Shown: positions 541-51,169 of the stretch, in pieces | How the letters are laid out: every line of letters starts with the position of its first letter | Numbering within the stretch: position 1 is the stretch's first letter | Assembly: GCA_030154085.1 (NCBI GenBank) | Contig: JASKKR010000002.1 | Location: forward strand, 1-64,000 | Length of the DNA: 64,000 nucleotides | Reading direction: 5' to 3' | Source of the DNA: Candidatus Cloacimonadota bacterium | GTDB lineage: Bacteria > Cloacimonadota > Cloacimonadia > Cloacimonadales > Cloacimonadaceae | The notes under the pieces: model-generated | Told to the model about the DNA's origin: nothing | Database searches by the model: none | What the model saw: only the letters and a program-made list of their open reading frames with translations | Translations under genes and position numbers: made by a program

Positions 541-628
541 GCTGAAGTGGTGAAATCGGTATACACGCTAGTTTCAGGGACTAGTGAGCGATAAGCTCAT
601 GGGGGTTCGAGTCCCCCCTTCAGCACCA
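541..628 (+). tRNA. tRNA-Leu, anticodon CAG
   Basis: This is a full class II tRNA cloverleaf. The acceptor GCTGAAG (541-547) pairs with CTTCAGC (618-624), followed by discriminator A and an encoded CCA (626-628). The anticodon stem CTAGT/ACTAG encloses a 7-base loop with CAG at 575-577. A long variable arm follows, then a T-arm GGGGG-TTCGAGT-CCCCC. A73, the long variable arm and the anticodon agree on leucine (codon CUG). A T-run (629-635) follows directly. Confidence 0.97.
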
Positions 629-41014: not shown

Positions 41015-41368
41015 ATGCTTTATACAGTAGCCCTGATAATTCATGTAATCATCTGCATCGTGTTGGTGCTGGTTATACTCGCTCAAACTTCTAAAGGCGG
41101 TCTGGATACAAACCTTGGTGGAGCTGCCATGAACGTATTTGGAGGTAGTGGGGCATCCAAACTTCTGAAGAAATGGACTCAGATCCTAGCCATCGCATTT
41201 GCTTTGTCTTGCATCTTGATGTCATTTTTGGTTAGAGACATGCGCAATGGACCTACCCTGACAGATGTGCAACAGCGCCAAAGCCAACTTCCAGATCCCG
41301 AAACTCAATCTGCTCCAACCGAAGCAGCTCCTATCGAGCTTCCTGTTGAAACTCCTCAGGGTGAATAA
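41015..41368 (+). CDS. secG: Preprotein translocase subunit SecG
   Basis: This 117-aa protein has two membrane helices joined by the conserved loop LAQTSKGGLDTNLGGAAMNVFGG. The C-terminal 40 residues are Gln/Pro/Glu-rich and extend past the normal length of about 75-110. It stabilises SecYE during protein export. A tRNA-Leu gene follows 16 nt after the stop, the classic secG-leu tRNA neighbourhood. Confidence 0.95.
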   Translation: MLYTVALIIHVIICIVLVLVILAQTSKGGLDTNLGGAAMNVFGGSGASKLLKKWTQILAIAFALSCILMSFLVRDMRNGPTLTDVQQRQSQLPDPETQSAPTEAAPIELPVETPQGE

Positions 41369-41384: not shown

Positions 41385-41472
41385 GCAGAAGTGGTGGAAC
41401 TGGCAGACACGCAAGACTAAGGATCTTGTGCCTGTAATGGGTGTGCGGGTTCGAGTCCCGCCTTCTGCACCA
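41385..41472 (+). tRNA. tRNA-Leu with anticodon AAG
   Basis: This is a complete class II tRNA: acceptor GCAGAAG (41385-41391) / CTTCTGC (41462-41468), discriminator A, encoded CCA. The anticodon stem CAAGA (41412-41416) pairs with TCTTG (41424-41428) around the 7-base loop CTAAGGA. With T at position 33 (41418), the anticodon is AAG (41419-41421), reading CUU/CUC. Bacteria normally use GAG here; A34 is rare and would need deamination to inosine. The long variable arm and T-arm GCGGG-TTCGAGT-CCCGC are normal. It is probably transcribed with secG. Confidence 0.93.
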
Positions 41473-41478
41473 TCGTAT

Positions 41479-41502
41479 GCCTCCTGGATAGGAGGCTTTT
41501 TT
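41479..41502 (+). terminator. Intrinsic terminator after secG-tRNA-Leu
   Basis: GCCTCC (41479-41484) pairs with GGAGGC (41491-41496) around TGGATA, followed by six T. It ends the transcript 7 nt after the tRNA CCA. Confidence 0.92.
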
Positions 41503-41654: not shown

Positions 41655-43655
41655 ATGAATGCTAAGATAAAAATAATTTTAATGTCAATCCTGGTTCTGG
41701 GGGCTTTTTCTATGCTTTTTTCAGAGCCTTTCACCAGAGAGGAGATCACCGTCGGCTCGGGCACAAATCTTGCTCGCATCCCAGTGGATATGTATTATAA
41801 GACCAGTTATTTTCAGATGCTGATCTACCCTTCAGAATTGGACAATTTTACTGGATTGATCACAGGGTTGAAGTTCTATAACAACTTTGAAAGTGATCTA
41901 CCAAATAAGGATACAAAGATTTGGATTCAGAGTACGGCTATGCCTACGCTTAATGCCGGATGGGTGCCCTTAAGCGATGAATCACACTTGGTGTTTGACG
42001 CTCCCATGTATTATCCATCCGGGGAAAATGAGATCACTTTCACTTTTACAGAAGATTTTCTCTATTTTGACGGTCGTAACCTCCTCATCACAGTTCAAAG
42101 ACCACTTGATGAAGACTATTACAGTACTAATGACAGATTTAAAAGCCAAACCATTGGCTCTAATCGAGCCCGAATCTATCAAAGCGATTATACTGAAATG
42201 GATCCCTATGACCCAACAAATACTGGTTCACTTTCGGGAACTTTCCCCATGACAACCTTGATCACCATTCCTATCACTCCAGCACAAATCTCAGGAATTG
42301 TCACCGCAAATGGTGAGCCCTTAAGCGGAGTCTTGGTAGAATTGGATGGTACTGATTACTCTGCTATGACAAATGCCGAAGGCGAATATGAATTGACTCT
42401 GTTGCCTCCCGGAAACTACGACTTGGTCTTTTCCAAACATGGTTATCAAACGATCACTGAGGAGATAGTTTTAAACGAAGGCGATGATCTCTCGATTAAC
42501 CAGAGTATGGAACCACTTCCTCTGATCAGCATTTATGGAAATATCATTGGCTCGGACACCTTGGCAGGCTTGGAAGGCGCGTATCTGGCATTTTCTGGTT
42601 ACGCTTCATATGCCGCCAGCACCGACCCCGAAGGCAATTTTATAATTCATAATGTCTTTGGCGGGCAAACCTATGAATACACTATCGTTGCATCTGGATA
42701 CAGTAATCTAACTGGTGAGATTCAGGTCGGAGAAACGGATTATGACATGGGAACTTTAACTATGAATGAAGTTACATATCCTCCGCATGGTGTCTCAGCC
42801 ATCCTGGATGAAAGTGATACCTGGGTCACTATCACCTGGTTAGCCCCGGATAACATTGGTTTGGATGCCGGATATCATGGTCAAGATTATCGAGCATTTG
42901 AGGGCTATCACGTATATCGTTTACATGTGGGAGAAGAAGATAATCCTGAAAGCTGGCTGCTTTTAACTGATGACATAATCACTACGACCTACTTTGAAGA
43001 CCACGATTGGCCTGAGCTTCCTGGCGGAAACTATCGATGGGCAGTGAACTGCGTCTATACAAATGGTGTTAGTTCCCTTGCAGCTATCTCAAATTCCATC
43101 ATCAAAGAAAATGGAATCGGCATGATCACAGGGATCGTAATCAATGCAGATGCTGAAGGAATCAGCGGTGCTACAATCAATGCCGGCGAATTTAGCACGG
43201 TAACCGATGAGCAAGGATCCTATAGTTTGGCAGTGGTAGCAGGGACTTATACTGTGACCATTTCAGCTCCGAGCTATCATCCCATCGAGTTTACCGATAT
43301 CGTAGTTGAAGCCGAAGAGACAGTCATCCTCAACGTCATCTTGCAGCCTACATCAAATGGCGATCTTACAAGTCCTGGGTATACAAACTCAATCACCAGC
43401 ATTAGCCCAAACCCATTTAATCCCCAGACAACTATCTCAATAGACCTAACAGAAGCGGGGGAAGTAAGCCTGGATGTGCTAAATATCAGAGGGCAAAAAG
43501 TGAAAACCATCTTTAAAGGTCAAAAAGATGCAGGAACGCACAGGTTTGTCTTTGATGCCAATGATGCAAGGTCCCCTTTGAGCAGTGGAATCTATTTTCT
43601 ACGGCTGCATAGCCGAAATTCAACAGATGTCCGCAAGATGATACTTAGCAAATAG
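41655..43655 (+). CDS. Secreted multidomain protein with carboxypeptidase-like repeats and sorting tail
   Basis: This 666-aa secreted protein has a signal peptide (to about residue 24), an N-terminal beta domain (about 25-210), and three carboxypeptidase regulatory-like repeats (VTANGEPLSGVLVELDG; YGNIIGSDTLAGLEGAYLAF; GIVINADAEGISGATINAG). A fibronectin-like segment lies between them (GYHVYRLHVGEE), followed by a C-terminal sorting domain (SISPNPFNPQTTISIDL ... GIYFLRL ... RKMILSK). The tail is of the FlgD-Ig/type-IX-like kind, so the protein is likely exported and surface-attached. GAGGGGAAG precedes the ATG. Function beyond the cell surface is unknown. It shares the tail with the carboxypeptidase at 51170. 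Confidence 0.85.
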   Translation: MNAKIKIILMSILVLGAFSMLFSEPFTREEITVGSGTNLARIPVDMYYKTSYFQMLIYPSELDNFTGLITGLKFYNNFESDLPNKDTKIWIQSTAMPTLNAGWVPLSDESHLVFDAPMYYPSGENEITFTFTEDFLYFDGRNLLITVQRPLDEDYYSTNDRFKSQTIGSNRARIYQSDYTEMDPYDPTNTGSLSGTFPMTTLITIPITPAQISGIVTANGEPLSGVLVELDGTDYSAMTNAEGEYELTLLPPGNYDLVFSKHGYQTITEEIVLNEGDDLSINQSMEPLPLISIYGNIIGSDTLAGLEGAYLAFSGYASYAASTDPEGNFIIHNVFGGQTYEYTIVASGYSNLTGEIQVGETDYDMGTLTMNEVTYPPHGVSAILDESDTWVTITWLAPDNIGLDAGYHGQDYRAFEGYHVYRLHVGEEDNPESWLLLTDDIITTTYFEDHDWPELPGGNYRWAVNCVYTNGVSSLAAISNSIIKENGIGMITGIVINADAEGISGATINAGEFSTVTDEQGSYSLAVVAGTYTVTISAPSYHPIEFTDIVVEAEETVILNVILQPTSNGDLTSPGYTNSITSISPNPFNPQTTISIDLTEAGEVSLDVLNIRGQKVKTIFKGQKDAGTHRFVFDANDARSPLSSGIYFLRLHSRNSTDVRKMILSK

Positions 43656-50991: not shown

Positions 50992-50996
50992 GCTTA

Positions 50997-51087
50997 GCCA
51001 GGTACAGCCAATGTCTGAATGTGAACCATGTCAGGTCGGGAACGAAGCAGCATTAAGCAATCTCGGACATGTGCGCTGCCACCTGGC
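50997..51087 (+). ncRNA. ffs: Signal recognition particle RNA (4.5S, small bacterial type)
   Basis: This 91-nt RNA has a closing stem GCCAGGT (50997-51003) / ACCTGGC (51081-51087). The apical domain has ATGTC...GACAT, the symmetric-loop strand GTCAGGT, a GGAA tetraloop (within CGGGAACG) and the AAGCAGC strand that binds Ffh. It targets nascent membrane and secreted proteins together with Ffh and FtsY. Confidence 0.94.
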
Positions 51088-51169
51088 ATTATTGTAGCCT
51101 CGGCTTCTAAATTGTATCATCTTTTTTGATGAGCTAATACCCAACCAATGCGGGTTTTGAAGGATTCAT

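Follow-up and report, generated by a model that had tools for sequence, protein, structure and literature searches.

How are the leucine codons CUU and CUC decoded in a bacterium whose tRNA-Leu for this pair has an adenosine at the wobble position (A34) instead of the guanosine of the usual tRNA-Leu(GAG)? The question is raised by a locus in a window of 64,000 nucleotides from a Candidatus Cloacimonadota bacterium. This window is contig 35 of a draft genome of 42 contigs (1.95 Mb, estimated to be 99.75% complete). The relevant features are:

541..628, + strand: tRNA-Leu(CAG), another leucine isoacceptor in the window (ARAGORN)
41015..41368, + strand: secG, directly upstream of tRNA-Leu(AAG) with a gap of 16 bp (NCBIfam TIGR00810, 60.8 bits)
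41385..41472, + strand: tRNA-Leu(AAG), complete class II tRNA with encoded CCA (ARAGORN; Rfam RF00005)
41412..41428, + strand: anticodon arm CAAGA-CTAAGGA-TCTTG (read from the sequence)
41419..41421, + strand: anticodon AAG, wobble A34 at 41419 (ARAGORN, anticodon at gene position 35)
41479..41496, + strand: intrinsic terminator-like hairpin followed by T6 (terminator scan)

ARAGORN, Rfam and the sequence itself identify a tRNA of class II fold that has the anticodon AAG and, as expected for leucine, a long variable arm and A73. The match to RF00005 spans positions 41385-41469 (54.4 bits, E 6e-9). By eye, the cloverleaf is intact, with acceptor stem GCAGAAG/CTTCTGC, anticodon stem CAAGA/TCTTG, T stem GCGGG/CCCGC, loop CTAAGGA and discriminator A73. 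The gene is probably cotranscribed with secG, and the terminator scan of the region found three sites where 0.6 were expected. The preliminary description had placed A34 of a tRNA-Leu at 41419, in an otherwise canonical gene between secG and a terminator. The A34 is genuine, given the ARAGORN anticodon, the Rfam match and the conservation across the phylum described below, and the cloverleaf, the TIGR00810 match and the hairpin with its T6 bear out the rest. The next gene (window 41655-43655) encodes a secreted protein with a C-terminal type IX secretion sorting domain (TIGR04183), and a small bacterial SRP RNA gene lies further on (window 50995-51092; RF00169, 65 bits).

We then read every tRNA match of the genome with ARAGORN. 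The leucine anticodons are CAA, TAA, TAG, CAG and AAG, and the only other A34 tRNA is tRNA-Arg(ACG). The preliminary description had left room for a tRNA-Leu(GAG) elsewhere in the genome; none is present among the tRNAs read by ARAGORN in this 99.75% complete draft. The same reading lacks tRNA-Ile(GAT) and tRNA-Ala(TGC), which shows that the genome is not wholly complete. These two genes often lie within rRNA operons, which draft assemblies tend to lose. Hence, for this genome alone, there is a slight chance that a GAG gene was missed. Among the 19,027 codons counted in the 64 kb window, in mechanically called open reading frames, CUU and CUC account for 362 and 344 of the 1875 leucine codons. 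In other words, CUC is in regular use (18% of the leucine codons) and about as common as CUU. With no GAG tRNA and both codons in use, tRNA-Leu(AAG) must read CUU and CUC.

Could the A34 be a sequencing or assembly error, or belong to a surplus, non-functional gene in a genome whose tRNA-Leu(GAG) went undetected? The draft state of the genome, with its 42 contigs and its two missing tRNAs, leaves some room for this, but the intact tRNA structure and the other genomes of the phylum make the chance close to negligible. Of 125 Cloacimonadota genomes, at least 93 carry an A34 tRNA-Leu by a pattern search, distant families included, and so do 65 of the 71 high-quality ones. A stricter A34 pattern had additionally matched two genomes (G056 and G062). 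The A34 is present in 41 of the 50 genera of the phylum, in genomes that were assembled separately, and we therefore rejected a sequencing error at 41419. The 14 high-quality genomes lacking a strict match were considered as losses of A34, and this was also rejected: nine of them carry AAG in a tRNA that the pattern had overlooked, with one more base in the D loop or a small change in the D arm. The other five have only CAG, TAG or CAA, and we read them as assembly gaps. Genera g5 and g7 share a D loop of tRNA-Leu(AAG) that is longer by one base (GGAATTTGGCAG); this base marks the lineage and makes patterns of fixed length miss the gene. The anticodon arm (GCAAGACTAAGGATCTTGTG) is identical in 30 of the 31 readable loci of the phylum, the remaining one differing by one compensated pair. 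Two contigs (G050:C26 and G058:C132) carry a tandem pair of close tRNA-Leu(AAG) copies.

The converse search, for a G34 tRNA-Leu, was done with a loose pattern that fits Escherichia coli leuU, run in place of a first pattern that was biased to the AAG arm. It matched one of the 125 genomes (G104). The GAG copy of this genome (L074, 1-1745, from G104:C42) is in a contig of 4.6 kb and has no encoded CCA, and a normal AAG copy is found elsewhere in the same genome; the GAG copy may be a contaminant. Hence, AAG stands in place of GAG both in the tRNA set of our genome and, by the loose G34 pattern, in the phylum, and tRNA-Leu(AAG) is fixed across Cloacimonadota.

The position of the gene gives an indication of its origin. 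In E. coli K-12, leuU encodes tRNA-Leu(GAG) 14 bp after secG. In Cloacimonadota, secG is just upstream of tRNA-Leu(AAG) in all 30 loci with a readable flank, the distant family f13 included. The two tRNAs thus occupy the same place, read the same codons and are 72% identical, but leuU has G34 in the loop TTGAGGT where Cloacimonadota have A34 in the loop CTAAGGA. Since E. coli keeps the GAG gene at this place, A34 probably replaced G34 in an ancestral secG-linked tRNA-Leu(GAG) gene; bacteria usually have GAG, which suggests this direction of change. The A34 gene might instead have come by horizontal transfer or recombination, for instance from Firmicutes with the same arm, an alternative that concerns the origin only and is compatible with decoding by inosine. 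An identical stretch of 26 bases covering the arm is found in Lachnospiraceae and Lactobacillales, and the identity of the whole tRNA to two of these (75-78%) is slightly above that to leuU. We nevertheless consider a horizontal origin unlikely, as the gene follows secG at the very site of tRNA-Leu(GAG) in E. coli. Moreover, among the 120 stretches listed for the exact arm in public genomes, SecG was seen next to the tRNA in members of Cloacimonadota only; this comparison is weak, as SecG is a divergent protein and many flanks are short. The linkage would still be compatible with a recombination inside the tRNA gene.

The replacement of G34 by A34 changes what the tRNA can read, since unmodified A34 reads mainly U, while inosine reads U, C and A (PMC8072771). 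A reader of U only would leave 18% of the leucine codons poorly read; the need to read CUC thus points to inosine at position 34. The enzyme expected to make it is present. Family matches identify one TadA in the genome (G000:C42:1474-1914), with the HAE and PCxxC motifs, 143 bits to Staphylococcus aureus TadA and clear homology to that of E. coli; the other two family matches resemble a dCMP-type deaminase and RibD. The canonical substrate of TadA in bacteria, tRNA-Arg(ACG), is a class I arginine tRNA reading CGN, unlike the class II tRNA-Leu(AAG), but the two share A34, the closing pairs and the loop except base 35. In our genome, GA-CTACGGA-TC of the former and GA-CTAAGGA-TC of the latter differ at base 35 alone over the loop and two closing pairs, bases 32, 33 and 36-38 being those of the Arg substrate.

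This single difference may be tolerated. An orthogonal tRNA altered to AAG at base 35 alone is partly edited by E. coli TadA, and further changes at 32, 37 or 38 block the editing (PMC11066159). The structure of S. aureus TadA shows base 35 splayed out, with a single hydrogen bond (PMC11472039). Finally, inosine at position 34 is proven in the tRNA-Leu(AAG) of Streptococcus pyogenes (PMC11472039) and Streptococcus mutans (PMC13249217). From the near-Arg loop, the editing of the 35-only variant in E. coli, the splayed base and the edited streptococcal tRNAs, it is very likely that tRNA-Leu(AAG) of Cloacimonadota carries inosine. Yet A34 does not guarantee I34: E. coli TadA failed in vitro on the tRNA-Leu(AAG) of S. 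pyogenes (PMC11472039), and two of the four A34 tRNAs of Oenococcus oeni are unedited (PMC8072771). Hence the alternative of an A34 that stays unmodified, and reads CUU and also CUC by weak A:C pairing, perhaps with tRNA-Leu(UAG) superwobbling over the box. Unedited A34 tRNAs do occur in O. oeni (PMC8072771), codons ending in C are read by some orthogonal tRNAs whose A34 is unmodified (PMC11066159), and tRNA-Leu(UAG) is present in our genome. However, CUC matches CUU in frequency, the loop suits TadA ideally except at base 35, and tRNAs of this type are edited in Streptococcus, so that an unmodified A34 seems very improbable to us.

The preliminary description had seen a choice between an expanded TadA and an unmodified A. 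It was right that either TadA acts or the A stays as it is, and the evidence favors TadA; an unusual TadA may, on the other hand, be unneeded, since the loop differs from that of the Arg substrate at base 35 alone. It had also pointed to the substrate-binding region of TadA as worth comparing. TadAs of Cloacimonadota read P[LFM]AHAEK around the catalytic AHAE, where PTAHAE is found in E. coli and S. aureus, and I replaces the T in S. pyogenes. The bulky L, F or M might widen the range of substrates, but the TadA of PDB 7cph also has I at this position, which makes the comparison a lead only. The C-terminal extension of S. pyogenes TadA is absent, with 0-7 residues past the core in 19 TadAs of the phylum and none in that of our genome.

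We consider it highly probable that the whole explanation is as follows. The gene would encode a working tRNA-Leu derived from the secG-linked tRNA-Leu(GAG) through substitution of A34 for G34. An ordinary TadA, with tRNA-Arg(ACG) as its standard substrate, would also deaminate the A34 of this tRNA to inosine. The resulting tRNA-Leu(IAG) would be the only tRNA that normally reads CUU and CUC; it could read CUA beside tRNA-Leu(UAG).

A tRNA-Leu(AAG) edited by TadA was already known from Oenococcus and Streptococcus (PMC11472039, PMC13249217). As in Cloacimonadota, in these Lactobacillales (S. pyogenes, S. mutans, O. oeni) the A34 tRNA-Leu replaces GAG, tadA is present and CUU and CUC are well used; the anticodon arm is identical in Streptococcus macacae. 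Cloacimonadota differ in belonging to another phylum, in the body of the tRNA and in the linkage to secG, and their editing is predicted where that of Lactobacillales is proven. Furthermore, their TadA has no counterpart of the C-terminal extension that is reported from S. pyogenes and suggested to aid recognition, and their Arg and Leu loops differ at 35 only, against 35 and 37 in S. pyogenes.

Almost all bacterial tRNA-Leu(AAG) genes have been placed in Bacilli, based on GtRNAdb (PMC13249217). Our scan of public genomes for the exact arm retrieved at least 120 stretches, and ARAGORN confirmed tRNA-Leu(AAG) in 116 of the 120 listed. These 116 are mostly from Lachnospiraceae and other Clostridia, but also from Lactobacillales, Synergistota, Planctomycetota, Sumerlaeota and Cloacimonadota. 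As the search pattern itself contained the arm, its sharing between phyla is no measured rate of convergence. Hence, tRNA-Leu(AAG) is more widely spread than stated in PMC13249217, extending to Lachnospiraceae, Synergistota, Planctomycetota and Sumerlaeota. The view of the preliminary description that A34 in bacteria is largely confined to tRNA-Arg was thus overstated, given these confirmed genes in several phyla and the edited tRNAs of Oenococcus and Streptococcus. In the literature searched, whose coverage was partial, we found no report of tRNA-Leu(AAG) in Cloacimonadota. What is new is the fixation across a phylum, together with the probable origin at the secG locus and the wider spread, whereas the edited tRNA of Lactobacillales was known.

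A broader reading is tentative, and we hold it to be somewhat less probable than its opposite: a whole phylum would have fixed a second inosine tRNA when G34 gave way to A34 at the conserved secG locus, its TadA (L, F or M for the T of PTAHAE) would have adapted to it independently of Lactobacillales, and several phyla sharing this arm would each have made the same switch on their own. If true, these separate switches would be convergent steps toward the inosine system of eukaryotes. The tRNA-Leu(IAG) has been tied to genome-wide leucine recoding (PMC13249217). Its gene's fixation in Cloacimonadota, commonness in Lachnospiraceae and matches in other phyla provide more lineages in which to study the second substrate of TadA and the response of codon use.
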